Below the pieces are notes generated by a model. The model was not told where the DNA came from. It saw nothing but the letters and a program-made list of their open reading frames with translations, and did not search any database. A stretch of DNA of 64,000 nt from Lysobacterales bacterium (lineage in GTDB: Bacteria > Pseudomonadota > Gammaproteobacteria > Xanthomonadales > Xanthomonadaceae), in NCBI GenBank assembly GCA_019510125.1, contig JAEKKX010000003.1:1-64000 (forward strand), given 5' to 3'. This document shows, one piece after another, positions 37,086-45,174 of the stretch. The position numbers and the translations under genes are program-made. Each line of letters begins with the position of its first letter. Position 1 is the first letter of the stretch.

Positions 37086-38987
37086 ATGCGCTACGAGGAC
37101 GAACATCGCCGATCGGTCGAAGAGCCGGAGGCGTTCTGGGCCGAGCAGGCGAAGGCCATCCACTGGCACGTGCCGCCGCACACGATCCTGCAGTACGACG
37201 AGCCGCCGTTCCGCAAATGGTTCGTCGGCGGCGAGACCAACCTCTGCTACAACGCCGTCGACCGGCACCTGGAAGCGCGCGGCGACCAGCTCGCGCTCGT
37301 CGCGATCTCCACCGAGACCAACGTCACCCGCGAGATCACCTACCGCGAACTGCATCGCGAGGTGAACGCCTTCGCCGCCGTGCTGCGCCGGCTCGATGTC
37401 GGTCGCGGCGATCGCGTCGTCATCTACATGCCGAACATGGCCGAGGCGGTGTTCGCGATGCTCGCCTGCGCGCGCATCGGCGCGATCCACTCGGTGGTGT
37501 TCGGCGGCTTCGCCGCGCACAACCTCGCGCTGCGCATCGACGACGCCCGGCCGAAGCTGCTGATCGCCGCCGACGCCGGCATCCGCGGCGGCAAGGTCAT
37601 CCCGTACAAGCCGCTGGTCGACGCCGCCTGCGCCGAAGCGGAATTCGCGCCGCCGAAGGTGCTGATCGTCTCGCGCGGACTCGACCCGGCCGAACCGAAG
37701 GCCGCCGGTCGCGACGAGGACTACGCCGCGCTGCGCGCGGACGTCGGCGATGCGCAGGTCCCGGTCGAATGGCTGGAGTCGAACGAACCCAGCTATCTGC
37801 TCTACACCTCCGGCACCACCGGCAAGCCCAAGGGCGTGCAGCGCGACGTCGGCGGCCACGCGGTGGCGATGGCGCTGTCGATGCGCACCGTCTACGACGT
37901 CGGCCCGGGGCAGGCGATGTTCTCCACCTCCGACGTGGGCTGGGCCGTCGGCCATTCCTACAACGTCTACGGTCCGCTGATCGTCGGCGCGACCTCGCTG
38001 CTGTACGAAGGCCTGCCGGTGCATCCAGACCCGGGGGTCTGGTGGGCGCTGTGCGAGAAGTACCGCGTGCGCACGATGTTCTCCTCGCCGACCGCCGCGC
38101 GCGTGCTCAAGAAGCACGACGTCGACCATATCCGCCGCCACGACCTGTCGTCGCTGCAGTACCTGTTCCTCGCCGGCGAACCGCTGGACGAGCCCACCGC
38201 GCAGTGGATCACCGACGCGCTCGGCAAGCCGGTCATCGACAACTACTGGCAGACCGAGACCGGCTGGCCGGTGCTGTGCCTGCTGCCCGGCCTCGACATG
38301 AAGCCGGTGAAGTTCGGCTCGCCCGGATTCCCCAACCTCGGCTACCGCACGAAGATCATCCACGAATCCACCGGCGAGGAAGTCGGCCCGGGCGAGAAGG
38401 GCGTGCTGGTGCTGCAACCGCCGCTGCCGCCGGGCTGCATGAGCACCCTGTGGCACGACGACGCGCGCTTCCTGCGCAGCTACTTCGGCCACTTCAAGGA
38501 ACTGCTGTACAGCTCGCTCGACTGGGCGATCCGCGACGCCGACGGCTACACCTTCATCCTCGGCCGCACCGACGACGTCATCAACGTCGCCGGCCATCGC
38601 CTGGGCACGCGCGAGATCGAGGAGGCCGTGTCGAGCTGCCCCGCCGTCGCCGAAGCCGCGGTCGTCGGCGTCGCCGATGAACTCAAAGGGCAAGTGCCGG
38701 TCGTCTTCGCCACCCTGCGCCAGGCCACCACCGAACCCGACGCCCGCGTCGCCGCCGCCGACGGCATGCGCAAACAGGTCGAACACAGCCTTGGCGCTGT
38801 CGCCCGTCCGGCCCGCATCTACGTCGTCGGCGCGTTGCCCAAGACCCGCTCCGGCAAACTCCTGCGCCGCTCCCTGCTCGCCCTCGCGCAGGGCGGCGAC
38901 CCCGGCGACCTGTCCACGCTGGATGATCCGAATGCGCTGGAAGAAGTGAAGCGTGCGCTGGCGCGCGGGCCGGAGTTCGGGGGGTGA
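37086..38987 (+). CDS. prpE: Propionate--CoA ligase (propionyl-CoA synthetase)
   Basis: 633-residue acyl-CoA synthetase of the acetyl/propionyl-CoA family. The adenylation motifs are YTSGTTGKPKGVQRD (A3), DNYWQTETGWP (A5), GRTDDVINVAGHRLGTREIEEAV (A8) and LPKTRSGKLLRR with the catalytic lysine (A10). The short N-terminus (MRYEDEHRRSVEEPEAFWAEQAKAIHWH) is typical of PrpE rather than Acs. It activates propionate for the methylcitrate cycle; prpB and prpC lie 3 kb downstream. The start at 37086 follows GGGAGGGG. Confidence 0.92.
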   Translation: MRYEDEHRRSVEEPEAFWAEQAKAIHWHVPPHTILQYDEPPFRKWFVGGETNLCYNAVDRHLEARGDQLALVAISTETNVTREITYRELHREVNAFAAVLRRLDVGRGDRVVIYMPNMAEAVFAMLACARIGAIHSVVFGGFAAHNLALRIDDARPKLLIAADAGIRGGKVIPYKPLVDAACAEAEFAPPKVLIVSRGLDPAEPKAAGRDEDYAALRADVGDAQVPVEWLESNEPSYLLYTSGTTGKPKGVQRDVGGHAVAMALSMRTVYDVGPGQAMFSTSDVGWAVGHSYNVYGPLIVGATSLLYEGLPVHPDPGVWWALCEKYRVRTMFSSPTAARVLKKHDVDHIRRHDLSSLQYLFLAGEPLDEPTAQWITDALGKPVIDNYWQTETGWPVLCLLPGLDMKPVKFGSPGFPNLGYRTKIIHESTGEEVGPGEKGVLVLQPPLPPGCMSTLWHDDARFLRSYFGHFKELLYSSLDWAIRDADGYTFILGRTDDVINVAGHRLGTREIEEAVSSCPAVAEAAVVGVADELKGQVPVVFATLRQATTEPDARVAAADGMRKQVEHSLGAVARPARIYVVGALPKTRSGKLLRRSLLALAQGGDPGDLSTLDDPNALEEVKRALARGPEFGG

Positions 38988-39701: not shown

Positions 39702-39962
39702 GACTGCCAGTAGCCCCCAAGCTGGAGTATGCGTGCGAGCCTGCCACGCGCTTCCGAGACGGTCAATCGCAGAAAATCGAGGAAAAAAGCGGATTTCATC
39801 CTCTTCAAGGTGATTGCCATCGTGCGGGGTTCCGATGCGTGGAGGGGTGGCCTTTCGTCATCGACTCCTGTTGTGAAATGGCGAAAGGCAAAGAGCCGTC
39901 GCCCCGGCGAAGGCCGGGGTCCAGCTTCTGACTTTCCGCTGTCCTTGCAAGCATTCCTGGAT
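39702..39962. other. Lower-GC spacer containing a REP-like copy
   Basis: 261 bases without a convincing gene between the exported orphan and the GIY-YIG gene. It includes REP-like copy B at 39898 and the likely promoter region of the orphan gene. No other signal is clear. Confidence 0.4.
39898..39930 (+). repeat. REP-like palindromic repeat, copy B
   Basis: A CGTCGCCCCGGCG core followed by AAGGCCGGGGTCCAGCTT. It has the same orientation as copy A (188) and is inverted relative to copy C (40278). It lies 33 bases beyond the 3' end of the GIY-YIG gene. Confidence 0.7.
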
Positions 39963-40250
39963 TCAAACGATCGTAGGGTACAAATCCTTCCATTCCGGAT
40001 TCATCGTCTCGATCAATCGAATCTTCCATGCCCGTCGCCACTCCTTGATTGCCTTCTCCTGAGTGATCGCGGCGGGCATGTCACCGTGTTGTTCGTACCA
40101 GACGAGATCGTGCACGCGGTAGCGTCGGGTGAAGCCCTCGATGGCGCCGTTGCGGTGCTGCCAGACACGTTTGATGAGGTCGGAGGTGACGCCGACGTAG
40201 AGGGTGCCGTGGTAGTGGTTGGCGAGGAGGTAGACGCAGGGTTGCTTCAT
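39963..40250 (-). CDS. GIY-YIG family nuclease-like protein
   Basis: 95 residues, a single GIY-YIG domain. VYLL at 6-9 and YVG at 18-20 are the variant GIY...YIG strands, R28 (LIKRVWQH) is the conserved arginine, and E65 in [13 protein letters not shown] the metal-binding glutamate. These stand-alone proteins (YhbQ/UvrC-N type) are predicted DNA endonucleases. I start it at 40250 (MKQPCVYLL). It is bracketed by inverted REP-like copies B and C, with the CCAG ends of both pointing toward the gene, which resembles a REP-associated mobile module. Confidence 0.88.
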
Positions 40251-40277
40251 GCTTCCAAGCATGGAAGCAGAGCGCAC

Positions 40278-40309
40278 AAACTGGGTCCCGGCTTTCGCCG
40301 GGATGACGG
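40278..40309 (-). repeat. REP-like palindromic repeat, copy C
   Basis: Reads on the minus strand as GTCATCCCGGCGAAAGCCGG and then GACCCAG. It lies 28 bases upstream of the GIY-YIG start. It and copy D share about 70 bases of flanking similarity on the same side, with a 140-base period. Confidence 0.75.
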
Positions 40310-40417
40310 GTGGGGAAAGGTTGCGGTGGGGTGTCGGGGAATTCCCCGGGAGGCTTGGTGGTTTCGGTCCGGCGCTGGCGCGCGAATCTGTTGCATTCGA
40401 TGCATGGGCAGTGCGTA

Positions 40418-40450
40418 CAAGCTGGGTCCCGGCCTTCGCCGGGATGACGG
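40418..40450 (-). repeat. REP-like palindromic repeat, copy D
   Basis: Same family and orientation as copy C, 140 bases further on. The adjoining 40449-40460 reads GGGTGGGGGAAG, identical to the unit of the tandem repeat at 49241. Copies C and D with their flanks form a degenerate direct duplication (40271-40343 and 40411-40483). Confidence 0.75.
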
Positions 40451-40560
40451 GTGGGGGAAGGTCGCGCTGGTCGTCGGGGAAGTCGCTGGGTGATGTCAGG
40501 GAGGTCCCGGGGATTTCGGGAACGACAGCGCCGACGCTTGCGCGCGTGCGCGCCCCGAGG

Positions 40561-41775
40561 TCATTCGGTCGCCCCCGGCTCCACCCCCGTATACCGCGCC
40601 CGTGGCCGAATCAGCTTCCCCTCCGCCTGCTGCTCCAGCGCATGCGCGAGCCAGCCGGCGAGCCGTCCCGCGGCGAACAGTACCAGCGCCGGGGTCGCGG
40701 GCAGGGCGTTGGCGTGGCAGATGGCGGCGAGCAGGAAGTCGATGTTCGGATGCTGGCCGCTGACGTCTTCGGTGGCGGCGACGAGCGCGTCGAGTTCGCG
40801 CATCGCGGGCGCGCCCGCGTGCTGCGCGCGCAGGCGTGCGAGGAGTTCGGCGGCGCGGGGGTCGCCGTGGGGATACAGGGCGTGGCCGAAGCCAGGGAGG
40901 TCGTCGCCGCGTTGCAGCCGGGTTTCGATGAAGTCGCGCGGCGAGGCGGTGTCGCGGGCGTCCGCGATCAGCGCGTAGGCGCGGGCGGTCGCGCCGCCGT
41001 GGCGCGGGCCCGAGAGTGCGGCCAGGCCGGCGCAGACGGTCGCGTGCAGGTGCGCGCCGGTGGAGGCGACCACGCGCGCGGCGAAGGCGGAGACATTGAG
41101 TTCGTGGTCGGCGCACAGCACCAGCGCGGCGCGGACGAGATCGGCGAAACCGGCATCGCCGGGTTTCCACAGGTCGGCCAGCAGTCGATGCACCGGGCCG
41201 GCCGGCGGCGGGCGGCCGACCAGCAGTGCGGCGTTCTGGCGGAGCAGGGCGGCGGCGATCTCGTGGCGCGCGCGCGGCGTCGAATTCAGCGCGCCGCGGG
41301 CGCCGAGCGCCAGCAGCGGGATCGCGGCCATCGCGCGTTCCAGCGGCGGCAAGGCGTCGGCCCCGGCGATGGCGGCGACGTGCGCCGGCCACGCGCCGCC
41401 TTCCAGCGCGGCGAACGGGTCGTGGTCGCCGCAGTCCCAGAGCTGGCGGGCGGTGTCCTCCAGGGTCGCGCCGGCACGCACCATCGCGATGGCGGAGCGG
41501 CCGCGGTAGTACGGGCCGTCGGGGCGGATCAGCGAGATCCGCGTCTCCAGCACCGGCAGGCCGCGATCGAGGCTGTGCGCGGCGGCGGCGGCGGCGCTGC
41601 GGCCGACCTGCTTGCGCTGCGCCAGGCGCTCCACGTCCAGCCGCGGATACAGCCGCGTGCGGTGGTCGGGGCCGGGGCGCGATTCCAGCAGGCCGCGGCT
41701 GACGTAGGCGTACAGCGTGGCCTGGCTGATGCCGAGCAGCTTGCAGGTTTCGCGGGCGGTGAGCAGGTCGGCCAT
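40561..41775 (-). CDS. HTH-citrate synthase fusion, putative methylcitrate-locus regulator
   Basis: 404 residues. Residues 1-56 are a MerR/excisionase-like DNA-binding helix-turn-helix ([30 protein letters not shown], then [10 protein letters not shown]). Residues about 70-404 are a citrate synthase fold with the active-site residues kept: H224 in ADHELN, H259 in GPRHGGA, H298 in GFGHALY and D346 in NIDF. It is divergent from prpB-prpC, and clustered TTGAT/ATCAA half-sites lie 10-36 bases upstream of its start. No PrpR-type activator is in the window. I infer a regulator that senses a citrate-synthase ligand such as propionyl-CoA, oxaloacetate or 2-methylcitrate. It could instead be an enzyme with DNA-binding capacity. 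Domain calls are firm; function is inferred. Confidence 0.85.
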
Positions 41776-41784
41776 GGCGACAGA

Positions 41785-41811
41785 TTGATTCACTCGATCA
41801 AGATTGATCAA
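41785..41811. promoter_or_regulatory. Candidate operator between the HTH-citrate synthase gene and prpB
   Basis: TTGAT (41785-41789) faces ATCAA (41797-41801) across 7 bases, and a compact TTGATCAA palindrome follows at 41804-41811. Four half-sites in 27 AT-rich bases, just upstream of the HTH gene and 112 bases before prpB, suggest binding of the fused HTH protein to control both directions. Confidence 0.65.
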
Positions 41812-41881
41812 CCCTCCGGATGGTGCCAGATTTGCGCCCCGACAGGCGTCGCCGGCGATTCCCGCGCGACGATGCCTGCGG

Positions 41882-41900
41882 CCCGGGGCGCCGCCCCGGG
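41882..41900 (+). promoter_or_regulatory. Hairpin just before the prpB ribosome-binding site
   Basis: CCCGGGGC (41882-41889) pairs with GCCCCGGG (41893-41900) around a 3-base loop, 12 bases before GAGGAG. It could modulate translation or stop short transcripts of prpB. Confidence 0.4.
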
Positions 41901-41922
41901 GCCGTCGACACGAGGAGTTCCG

Positions 41923-42807
41923 ATGAGCCATCCGTCCGCAGGGGCACGCTTCCGTGCCGCCCTCGCCGAAGAATCCCCGCTGCAGGTGATCGGCGCGATC
42001 AACGCCAACCACGCCCTGCTCGCCAAGCGCGCCGGTTACCGTGCGATCTACCTGTCGGGCGGCGGCGTCGCCGCCGGCTCGCTGGGGCTGCCGGACCTCG
42101 GCATCAACACGCTGGAGGACGTGCTGATCGACGTCCGCCGGATCACCGATGTCTGCGACCTGCCGCTGCTGGTCGACATCGACACCGGCTTCGGTCCCAG
42201 CGCGTTCAACATCGAGCGCACGGTGAAGTCGCTGATCAAGGCCGGCGCCGCCGCCTGCCACATCGAGGACCAGGTCGGCGCCAAGCGCTGCGGCCACCGT
42301 CCCGGCAAGGAAATCGTCACCACCGGCGAGATGGTCGATCGGGTGAAGGCCGCCGCCGACGCGAAGACCGATCCCGACTTCTTCCTGATCGCGCGCACCG
42401 ACGCCATCGCCGTCGACGGCGTGGACGCGGCGATCGAGCGCGCCATCGCCTGCGTCGAGGCCGGCGCCGACGGCATCTTCGCCGAGGCCGCGTACGATCT
42501 GCCGACCTACCGCCGCTTCGTGGATGCCGTGAAGGTGCCGGTGCTCGCCAACATCACCGAGTTCGGCAAGACCCCGCTGTTCACCCGCGACGAACTGGCC
42601 TCGGCCGGCGTCGCGATCCAGTTGTTCCCGCTGTCGGCGTTCCGCGCCATGAACAAGGCCGCGGAGAACGTCTACCAGGCGATCCGCCGCGACGGGCACC
42701 AGCAGGCCGTGGTCGACACGATGCAGACCCGCGAGGAACTCTACGACCGCATCGGCTACCACGCCTTCGAACAGAAGCTCGACGCGCTCTTCGCGCAGAA
42801 AAAGTGA
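41923..42807 (+). CDS. prpB: 2-methylisocitrate lyase
   Basis: 294 residues of the isocitrate lyase/PEP mutase superfamily. [26 protein letters not shown], the metal-binding DIDTGFG, and the lyase signature [12 protein letters not shown] (catalytic Cys) are diagnostic of PrpB. It splits 2-methylisocitrate to pyruvate and succinate. GAGGAG at 41912-41917 fixes the start at 41923. prpC follows after 14 bases. Regulation by the divergent HTH-citrate synthase protein is likely. Confidence 0.96.
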
Positions 42808-42821
42808 GAGGACCCCCCACC

Positions 42822-43976
42822 ATGAGCGATTCCCAGCAAGTGCTTCCGAAAGCCAAGAAGTCCGTCGCCCTCAGCGGCACCGCCGCGGGCAACACCGCGC
42901 TGTGCACCGTCGGCCGCAGCGGCAACGACCTGCACTACCGCGGCTACGACATCCACGACCTGGCGACGAAATCGACCTTCGAGGAAGTCGCGCACCTGCT
43001 GGTGCACGGCGCGCTGCCGACCGCCTCGCAGTTGAAGGCGTACAAGGCCAAGCTCAAGCGCCTGCGCGGGCTGCCGGCGATCGTCCAGGAAGCGCTGGAA
43101 CTGGTGCCGGCCAACGCCCACCCGATGGACGTGATGCGCACCGGCTGCTCGGTGCTGGGCACGGTGCTGCCCGAGCGCGAGACGCATCCGGAGAACGAGG
43201 CCCGCGACATCGCCGACCGCCTGATCGCGAGCTTCGGCTCGATGCTGCTGTACTGGTGGCACTTCACCCGCAACGGCCGGCGCATCGACTGCGAGACCGA
43301 CGACGATTCGGTCGCCGCGCACTTCCTGCACCTGCTCCATGGCGAGCCGCCGTCGAAGCTGCACGCGGACGCGCTCGACAAGTCGCTGATCCTCTACGCC
43401 GAGCACGAGTTCAACGCCTCGACGTTCACCGCGCGGGTCATCGCCGGCACCGGCAGCGACCTGTTCAGTTGCATCACCGGCGCGATCGGCGCGCTGCGCG
43501 GTCCCAAGCACGGCGGCGCGAACGAAGTGGCGATGGACATCATCAGCCGCTACGCCACCGCCGACGAGGCCGAGGCCGACATCCGCGCAAGGATGGAACG
43601 CAAGGAGATCATCATCGGCTTCGGCCACCCGGTGTACACCATCGGCGACCCACGCAATCCGATCATCAAGGAACTCTCGCGCGCGCTGTGCCGCGACGGC
43701 GGCAACAAGACGCTGTTCGACGTGTCCGAGCGCATCGAGACGCTGATGATGGACACCAAGAAGATGTTCCCGAACCTCGACTGGTACAGCGCCTCGGCCT
43801 ACCACATGATGGGCATCCCGACGCCGATGTTCACGCCGCTGTTCGTGATCGCGCGCACCACCGGCTGGAGCGCGCACGTGATCGAGCAGCGCGAGGACGG
43901 CAAGATCATCCGCCCGAGCGCGAATTACGTCGGTCCGGAAGATCGCGCCTACGTGGCGATCGACCAGCGCGGCTGA
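42822..43976 (+). CDS. prpC: 2-methylcitrate synthase
   Basis: 384 residues of the short citrate synthase type used as methylcitrate synthase. [33 protein letters not shown] is the PrpC-type start. Catalytic residues lie in GPKHGGANE (His), [14 protein letters not shown] (His; P in place of the Arg of true citrate synthase) and NLDWYSA (Asp). It condenses propionyl-CoA with oxaloacetate. A terminator follows 19 bases later; the acnD/prpF or prpD genes expected next are absent, so the dehydratase must be encoded elsewhere. Confidence 0.94.
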
Positions 43977-43995
43977 TCGTCGCCGTGCGGTCCCG

Positions 43996-44032
43996 GACGG
44001 GGCGCCCCTCGGGCGCCCCGTCGCGTTTGCGG
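43996..44032 (+). terminator. Terminator after prpC with a CGTTTGCGG tail
   Basis: A perfect 12-bp stem (43996-44007 with 44011-44022) has a CTC loop; CGTTTGCGG follows at 44024-44032. It ends the prpBC transcript. Confidence 0.85.
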
Positions 44033-44098
44033 GGCGGTTCCGCGCGCGATCCGTCTCGCTTACCCTAAACGGCGTTCTCCGTGGATCCCGCCCGACCG

Positions 44099-44575
44099 AT
44101 GGACATGTCCTGGCTCATTCCCGACGGCCAATGGGGCGTGCACGTGCTCGTCGCCGTCGCCGCGTTCTCGATCACCGGCCTGGTGGTCCTGATCCACTAC
44201 GAGGGCCTGCATGCGCTGGCCCGGCGCTATTCGGGACGCGCGCCCAGCCGCGACCGCCGGGTGATGCTGAAGATCATCTTCGCGCTGCTCGCGCTGCACA
44301 TCGTCGAGATCTGGTGCTACGGGCTGACCTTCTGGGCGCTGCTGCAGGTGCCGGACACCGGCTTCGTCCACGGCGAACACGCCGTCGACAACGTGTTCGA
44401 CACGATCTACCTCTCCGCCACCACCTACACCACGCTGGGCCTGGGCGACCTTGCGCCGGTCGGCGCGATCCGGCTGCTGTCGGGCATGGAATCGCTGACC
44501 GGCTTCCTGCTGGTGACGTGGTCGGCGTCGTTCACCTACCTGGAGATGTCGCGGTACTGGCGGCACGAGAACTGA
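44099..44575 (+). CDS. Two-pore-domain-like ion channel with atypical filter
   Basis: 158 residues with three hydrophobic segments (about 14-33, 57-81 and 126-147) and a pore loop of the Ion_trans_2 type before the last. The filter reads TTLGLGD (111-117) where K+ channels have TVGYGD or TVGFGD, so the aromatic residue is Leu. The helix-pore-helix layout still matches bacterial channel proteins. A GTG at 44081 would add six residues. It stands alone after prpC. Ion selectivity is uncertain. Confidence 0.75.
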
Positions 44576-44613
44576 CCGCGCCGGCGGCGAAGACGCGACA
44601 TCGGGATGCGCGC

Positions 44614-45174
44614 ATGACCGAACTCTACGTCAGCACCGATGTCGAGACCGATGGCCCGATCCCCGGGCCGCACTCGATGCTCAGCCTGGGCGCCGCCGCC
44701 TACACCGCCGACAAGCGCCTGGTCGCGACCTTCTCGGTCAATCTCGACACGCTGCCCGACGCCGCGCCCGACCCGCGCACCGCGGCGTGGTGGGCGACCC
44801 AGCCGGCGGCGTGGGCGGCCTGCCGGCGCGATCCCGAGCCGCCGCAGGTCGCGATGCCGCGCTACCGCGACTGGCTGAAGGCGCTGCCGGGCCGGCCGGT
44901 GTTCGTGGCGTATCCGGCGGGGTTCGACTTCACCTTCGTCTACTGGTACCTGATCCGCTTCGCCGGCGAGTGCCCGTTCGGCCATTCCGCGCTCGACATC
45001 AAGACGCTGGCGATGGCGGCGCTGGGCAGCGACTATCGCGACGCGGTGAAGCGCCGCATGCCGAAGCGCTGGTTCGACCCGATGCCGCACACCCACGTCG
45101 CGCTGGACGACGCGATCGAACAGGGCGCGATGTTCTGCAACCTGCTGCGCGACCTGCACGGCGATCGATCCTGA
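44614..45174 (+). CDS. DEDD-type 3'-5' exonuclease domain protein
   Basis: 186 residues. The acidic motif [21 protein letters not shown] (D9, E11) is exonuclease motif [18 protein letters not shown] is motif II, and [13 protein letters not shown] near residue 165 is motif III with its His and Asp. This is the DnaQ/RNase T-like fold, often annotated as exoribonuclease. It starts 38 bases after the ion channel on the same strand. A bidirectional hairpin follows. Substrate (RNA or DNA) is not evident. Confidence 0.85.

Follow-up and report, generated by a model that had tools for sequence, protein, structure and literature searches.

Within the 64,000-nucleotide stretch of Lysobacterales DNA analyzed here (the window), a gene of the kind that is labeled citrate synthase very probably encodes a regulator that binds DNA and derives from that enzyme, judging from its sequence and that of its relatives. 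It appears to belong to an ancient family of one-component regulators that was recruited in the Lysobacterales to the methylcitrate operon. The protein architecture, the synteny, the operator, the lack of that operator where the gene is lacking, the exclusion of PrpR, and the single origin of the fusion were all computed here. The features of the locus are as follows.

37083..38987, plus strand: prpE, propionate-CoA ligase, on the side of the fusion gene away from prpB (TIGR02316 over cut-off)
40561..41775, minus strand: HTH-citrate synthase fusion gene (404 aa), an ORF with its ATG at 41775 and its stop at 40561 (Pfam)
40600..41565, minus strand: citrate synthase domain, residues 71-392, active-site residues retained (Pfam and alignment)
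41611..41766, minus strand: HTH_17/MerR-type DNA-binding head, residues 4-55, recognition helix at about residues 19-28 (Pfam)
41785..41811, no strand assigned: predicted operator TTGA-N9-TCAA-N2-TTGA, 23 bp at 41785-41807 with a flanking TCAA to 41811 (conservation)
41804..41832, plus strand: predicted prpB core promoter, -35 TTGATC, 17 bp, extended -10 TGC-CAGATT (pattern in 30/30 loci)
41923..42807, plus strand: prpB, methylisocitrate lyase, predicted target (TIGR02317 and NF008455 over cut-off)
42822..43976, plus strand: prpC, 2-methylcitrate synthase, predicted target (NF009006 over cut-off)

A MerR-type HTH is fused to a citrate synthase fold

The first-pass annotation of this DNA had proposed an HTH at residues 1-56 followed by a citrate synthase at residues 70-404. 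Pfam bore out both halves with slightly narrower boundaries, as HTH_17 matched residues 4-55 (35.7 bits, cut-off 27), MerR_1 matched residues 6-53 (22.0 bits, cut-off 21.6), and Citrate_synt matched residues 71-392 (206.9 bits, cut-off 27). PF00376 (MerR) stayed below its cut-off (23.5 vs. 28.2 bits), and the protein belongs among the MerR-type HTH proteins by way of MerR_1 and HTH_17. Curated NCBIfam enzyme models gave 21 matches, none of them over cut-off, the best being NF009005 (153.5 vs. 332), a model that is over cut-off in 1 of 14 control genomes. The PRK12350 cut-off was also missed. Both Pfam and the relatives described below indicate a DNA-binding head on a metabolic-enzyme fold, which is the make-up of an enzyme-derived one-component regulator. 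The source genome holds three citrate-synthase-like genes, namely the fusion, PrpC, and GltA.

The fusion gene is divergent from prpB and never accompanies PrpR

We surveyed 198 genomes of the taxonomic family for the fusion (E ≤ 1e-50) and for a PrpB relative (E ≤ 1e-70), which were present in 44 and 195 genomes, respectively. Full-length fusions occur in 43 of the 44 genomes and none of the 44 has internal stops. An artefact of reading frame or assembly can therefore be ruled out, since 44/198 genomes carry the gene. The divergent arrangement with prpB-prpC that had been noted initially was confirmed by coordinates and NCBIfam identities, and it recurs widely: prpB is divergent beside the fusion in 43/44 fusion-bearing genomes from 10 genera (30 loci read, the source genome included, plus 13 judged from coordinates with gaps of at most ~320 bp). 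In the 44th genome, G104, a contig end truncates the fusion gene, and prpB is found where a different contig begins. Similarly, among 80 genome-contig loci, 50 are at least 57% identical, with titles naming Lysobacteraceae or Dyella and some unplaced MAGs, and prpB is adjacent and divergent in 46 of these. In two Dyella loci of this set prpB lies ~1.2 kb from the fusion, in another an aconitase-family gene (L074) takes the place of prpB, and in L081 prpF is found ~3 kb upstream of the fusion.

The fusion and its operator persist even where prpB is only 66-67% identical to that of the window (L015, L016, L017, and L019). Variation of this kind was noted in these four loci and in L042, L058, L060, and L111: in some relatives a prpB type of ~67% identity takes the position of the usual >85% type, and prpC likewise comes in ~92% and ~71% types, with the fusion gene retained throughout. 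Such a pattern suggests repeated exchange of the enzymes next to a single regulator. Two further ORFs were seen near the locus. A GIY-YIG ORF of 104 aa (39963-40277, minus strand, Pfam 9e-13) lies between prpE and the fusion gene and is flanked by inverted copies of a 32-35-nt GC-rich repeat, adjoining a 63-nt direct repeat (repeat coordinates 39896-39930, 40275-40309, and 40419-40450); this is perhaps a small repeat-associated nuclease unit. A SUFU-domain protein (35896-36996, plus strand, Pfam 2e-39) is encoded between malate dehydrogenase and prpE. Rfam gathering scores gave no known RNA element at 40000-45000.

Canonical PrpR, defined as TIGR02329 over cut-off, is encoded in 22/198 genomes of the family and in none of the 44 with the fusion. 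It is divergent from prpB and within 0.6 kb of it in 20/22 of these genomes by coordinates, while in G022 and G067 it lies 3.5 kb away. Within a single genus (g29), one sampled member carries the fusion (G029) and seven others carry PrpR. The best TIGR02329 match in the source genome scores 308.7 bits vs. a cut-off of 499.2, in agreement with the earlier remark that a PrpR-type activator is absent, and an ordinary PrpR-controlled operon was rejected on this basis. It should be noted that the fusion is dispensable, because 151 further genomes of the family have a prpB relative without it.

A conserved operator overlaps the predicted prpB promoter

The 30 intergenic regions between the fusion and prpB share TTGAT-N7-ATCAAGATTGATC, with each specified position present in 30/30 and the following AA in 29/30. 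The 23-bp site occurs in 30/30 fusion loci vs. 0/19 sampled fusion-less prpB promoters. For the latter figure, we read the prpB surroundings in 19 of the 154 fusion-less genomes of the family and found no operator within 300 bp upstream of prpB in any of them, while it was present in the fusion-bearing positive control (G113). Within the 4.08-Mb source genome, the 15-bp operator core occurs once at ≤2 mismatches, and at that threshold no copy accompanies prpE. The 23-bp form has 12 matches at ≤3 mismatches, namely this exact one, one with 2 mismatches, and ten with 3.

On the prpB side, all 30 fusion loci contain TTGATC-N14-TGn-[CG]A[GC]ATT at a conserved spacing to the operator, and we read this as a -35 overlapped by the operator plus an extended but poor -10, the latter being CAGATT, CACATT, or GAGATT in 30/30. 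A generic sigma-70 promoter and terminator scan, stricter than this pattern, found nothing at 41600-42000, so the promoter reading draws upon conservation. TAAAAT, TAGAAT, and TATAAT are all missing from the 30 fusion-bearing intergenic regions. Among the 19 fusion-less genomes, TAAAAT lies within 100 bp of prpB in 12, TAGAAT or TATAAT is found in 2 more, and 5 have none of the three. Several of these 19 loci have prpE or mdh adjoining prpB, and in several no regulator gene was seen near prpB. In one PrpR genome (L173 of G195), a sigma-54-like TTGGCACG...CTTGC element and TTTCA/TGAAA dyads were observed by eye upstream of prpB, which would place the same prp operon under another promoter class. 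On the opposite side, the operator is situated 10-32 nt upstream of the fusion start codon. Given the synteny in 43/44 genomes, the site in 30/30 vs. 0/19 promoters, and the complete lack of co-occurrence with canonical PrpR, the original proposal that the fusion controls prpBC is very probably correct.

The operator follows the protein across distant relatives

We next consider 118 HTH-citrate synthase (HTH-CS) genes matching the model over its full length, a set in which the same genome can recur; the protein alignment has 119 rows. Seen from the HTH-CS gene side, the site reads TCAA-N2-TTGA-N9-TCAA, and it occurs within 150 bp upstream of 110/118 genes and of 26/32 representatives that are <70% identical, with the exact site missing from the other 6 of these distant representatives. 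In 200 rounds of dinucleotide-preserving shuffles of each upstream set, no site arose. Of the eight genes without the exact 23-bp site, L115 and L151 have it with a shorter spacing, L113 and L114 retain TTGAT-N7-ATCAA, and L107, L109, L138, and L153 have neither the exact site nor either of these forms. Spacing varies among 20 Actinomycetota loci, with N9 in 2, N8 in 10, N6 in 1, N5 in 3, N0 in 1, and no site in 3.

The recognition helix is conserved alongside the operator. T20, Y22, A23, S26, and R27 are present in 119/119 rows, Y24 and V25 in 118, and L21 in 116. The recognition helix has a mean pairwise identity of 68% among the 32 representatives, more than the whole HTH (49%), residues 206-400 (48%), or residues 56-205 (34%). 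Operator and helix are conserved jointly in organisms whose flanks are unrelated, and no other finding argues as strongly for binding of the site by the protein.

The family is widespread and its divergent partners differ

In total, 48/398 Pseudomonadota genomes contain a match at E ≤ 1e-75, all of these matches covering the HTH, and 24/246 genomes from the phylum of Nonomuraea contain one at E ≤ 1e-70, of which 23 reach into the HTH. In the latter sample, the match in G619 does not reach the HTH and that in G633 stops short. Plasmid records gave 68 matches at E ≤ 1e-40, with 58 covering at least 80% of the query; these come most often from Agrobacterium, Roseomonas, and Burkholderiales, with Deinococcus among them, and the public records annotate HTH-CS members as citrate synthase family protein.

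Outside the Lysobacterales, the divergent neighbor is mostly a stand-alone citrate synthase gene. Of the 30 genome-contig loci that are <57% identical, 25 have a divergent citrate synthase. The two such partners tested (L089 and L086) both pass PRK12350, and the sequence in L090 was too short to score. Other neighbors include a DinB-like ORF in L085 (by eye) and a CoA-transferase-like ORF in both L113 and L114, followed further on in L113 by an isomerase of the PrpF/oxalomesaconate-tautomerase kind (below cut-off), while L115 has a homocitrate/isopropylmalate-synthase-like gene (below cut-off). We also examined the upstream neighbor of the fusion in nine annotated plasmid loci. The divergent gene encodes a citrate synthase in Agrobacterium, a CoA transferase in Azospirillum, a GudP transporter with a hydroxyacid dehydrogenase in Paraburkholderia, a hydroxyacid dehydrogenase in Comamonas and a Comamonadaceae plasmid, an MFS transporter with a hydroxyacid dehydrogenase in Thioclava, a pyruvate carboxyltransferase in Deinococcus, and a DUF2332 protein in Pseudoroseomonas. 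The Paraburkholderia sprentiae locus has a co-directional neighbor and lacks the operator site. Pfam assigned ten more neighbors to CoA_transf_3 (4), citrate synthase (3), aconitase (1, L074), cation efflux (1, in L138, a locus without the site), and DUF2332 (1, L147, already counted).

Partners elsewhere differ, so the family at large cannot be called a propionate family; within the Lysobacterales it can. The idea of an enzyme-derived regulator of propionate breakdown therefore survives in part: it fits the Lysobacterales, where prpB lies divergent beside the fusion in 43/44 genomes, but not the wider family, in which the partners are mostly citrate synthase genes, otherwise CoA-transferase, hydroxyacid-dehydrogenase, or other genes, and the spread is partly unrelated to propionate genes. 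Propionate control would be a lineage-specific use of an older regulator derived from citrate synthase. In a tree of 55 synthase domains taken without the HTH and rooted on GltA, all 35 HTH-CS rows form one clade (100/100) with a long stem (1.32), 16 partner synthases form another (99/98), and PrpC groups with the partners (96/81). The simplest reading is a single fusion event that was followed by re-targeting.

The active site is retained

H224, H259, H298, and D346, which had been listed initially as kept, are indeed present, and the alignment matches them, like R307, R371, and R390, to active-site residues of PrpC and GltA. Across the relatives, H259, R307, D346, and R371 occur in 119/119 rows, H224 in 117, and H298 in 116. 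The three exceptions at H298 are Asn in L086 and L131, both of which have intact operators, and Gln in L138, where the site is lacking. In the partner synthases, the position of the catalytic Asp is occupied by Glu in 16/16 rows (for example L089:3812-4903 and L146:2288-3388), whereas PrpC, GltA, and the HTH-CS rows have Asp. The almost complete retention of these residues in the HTH-CS rows favors an intact ligand site and also allows catalysis, and some residual catalysis by the fusion protein is possible because its active site appears intact. The Asn at H298 in L086 and L131 alongside intact operators suggests that catalysis is not needed. In Caulobacter, CitA loses its activity when H303, equated with the oxaloacetate-binding H306 of E. 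coli GltA, is replaced (PMC7083601), and by our own mapping fusion H298 would correspond to this residue. The same source reports that E. coli gltA can be replaced by Caulobacter CitB and not by CitC, which are encoded by consecutive locus tags (PMC7083601). As several Pseudomonadota genomes pair the fusion with a divergent synthase, we suspect that CitC is an HTH-CS member; the relevant passages of PMC7083601 mention no HTH.

Proposed mechanism and alternatives

We consider it probable that the protein is a one-component regulator with a citrate synthase dimer as its effector, which would bind the shared site, activate prpBC, repress its own gene, and sense a ligand. Dimerization, DNA binding, the sign of control, the ligand, and the domain movement are what we infer in this model. 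The dimer would present its two N-terminal MerR/HTH_17-type heads to the dyad TTGA-N9-TCAA, with a third TTGA half-site joining the dyad in the region shared by the fusion gene and prpB. Activation of prpBC by the bound protein is most likely because the -35 on which the site ends belongs to a poor core promoter, and self-repression is most likely because the site lies so close upstream of its own start codon. The citrate synthase domain would keep an oxaloacetate/acyl-CoA site, the ligand most likely being propionyl-CoA with oxaloacetate, or methylcitrate, and when the two lobes close on this ligand, the DNA-binding heads would be repositioned. In a broader scenario, towards which we lean only slightly, the family in Pseudomonadota, Actinomycetota, and Deinococcota would share an intact synthase-dimer sensor and the near-universal operator TCAA-N2-TTGA-N8/9-TCAA; its single origin would probably lie next to a citrate synthase gene, with later re-targeting to methylcitrate, CoA-transferase, and hydroxyacid operons, and lobe closure on oxaloacetate plus acyl-CoA would be the switch.

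The catalytic residues are conserved more than a pure sensor might need, which counts against the sensor reading and lends some weight to a trigger enzyme, that is, a still active citrate or methylcitrate synthase that also regulates prpBC, with flux through its own active site setting transcription. All of the tested active-site residues are retained in the window protein and nearly all across the 119 rows, including the catalytic Asp, where the partner synthases have Glu. Nevertheless, we regard this as a minority possibility, as the genome already encodes PrpC and GltA, no NCBIfam enzyme model exceeds its cut-off, H298 is Asn in two members with intact operators, and a long branch leads to the fusion clade. 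Far less credible is an ordinary enzyme whose vestigial HTH no longer binds DNA. The annotation in public plasmid records would suit it, but the recognition helix is the best conserved of the four regions compared, and the operator is conserved along with it.

As for the sign of control, promoter strength is the one argument that favors activation, and binding on the -35 might just as well cause repression. A repressor would use the same operator to block the prpB -35 and its own promoter until released by propionyl-CoA or methylcitrate, in keeping with the overlap of the operator and the predicted -35. There is also a parallel in a different regulator, X. citri PrpR, which represses prpB through GTTGCAA-N2-TTGCAAC (PMC12153269). 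We prefer activation and hold repression to be the less likely option, because the prpB core promoter is poor in 30/30 fusion loci, compared to the TAAAAT found in 12/19 fusion-less ones. Lastly, the fusion could be a self-contained passenger that regulates only its own gene, its closeness to prpB having no regulatory meaning. Across the wider family the operator does follow the fusion gene rather than prpB, and many genomes of the taxonomic family do without the fusion. This seems improbable, though, against its position divergent from prpB in 10 genera, the mutual exclusion with PrpR, and the conserved promoter-operator spacing on the prpB side.

Significance and comparison with known systems

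A literature search of titles and the beginnings of abstracts, with subscription papers mostly outside its scope, returned no description of a transcription regulator with a citrate synthase fold among the matches listed; this leaves novelty unproven, and a widespread regulator family seems to have gone unrecognized so far. If the model is correct, this family of sensor-regulators, whose members are commonly labeled enzymes, derives from an enzyme of central metabolism, and among the citrate synthases annotated as a genome's second or third, some would be regulators. The reading of acyl-CoA and oxaloacetate levels into transcription would become directly testable, and the conserved operator would make regulons predictable.

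The closest likeness in design is to the MocR/GabR regulators, which join a winged HTH to an aminotransferase-fold domain and similarly employ a whole metabolic-enzyme fold as the effector domain (PMC6917764). The fusion differs in having a citrate synthase fold and a MerR/HTH_17-like HTH; Pfam found only HTH and Citrate_synt families in it and no aminotransferase domain. Regarding prp control, a 2012 proteobacterial study on malonate and propionate regulation, as relayed by PMC9765439, has all analyzed Xanthomonadales using a Fis-family PrpR, and the same source relays that Gammaproteobacteria typically use a GntR-type regulator (PMC9765439). PrpR (sigma-54, Fis-family, TIGR02329) fills the same slot divergent from prpB in 20/22 PrpR genomes, but it consists of other domains than the fusion and is not over cut-off in the source genome. 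The PRK12350-type synthases resemble the fusion insofar as many of its relatives are divergent from such a synthase, although the window protein itself scores below the PRK12350 cut-off. With the MerR family, the fusion shares the HTH type, a dyad operator, and a divergent layout. Classical MerR operators lie inside a 19-20-bp spacer between -35 and -10. The fusion site, in contrast, is upstream of and on the predicted prpB -35, and the spacer at prpB is 17 bp in 30/30 loci rather than elongated.
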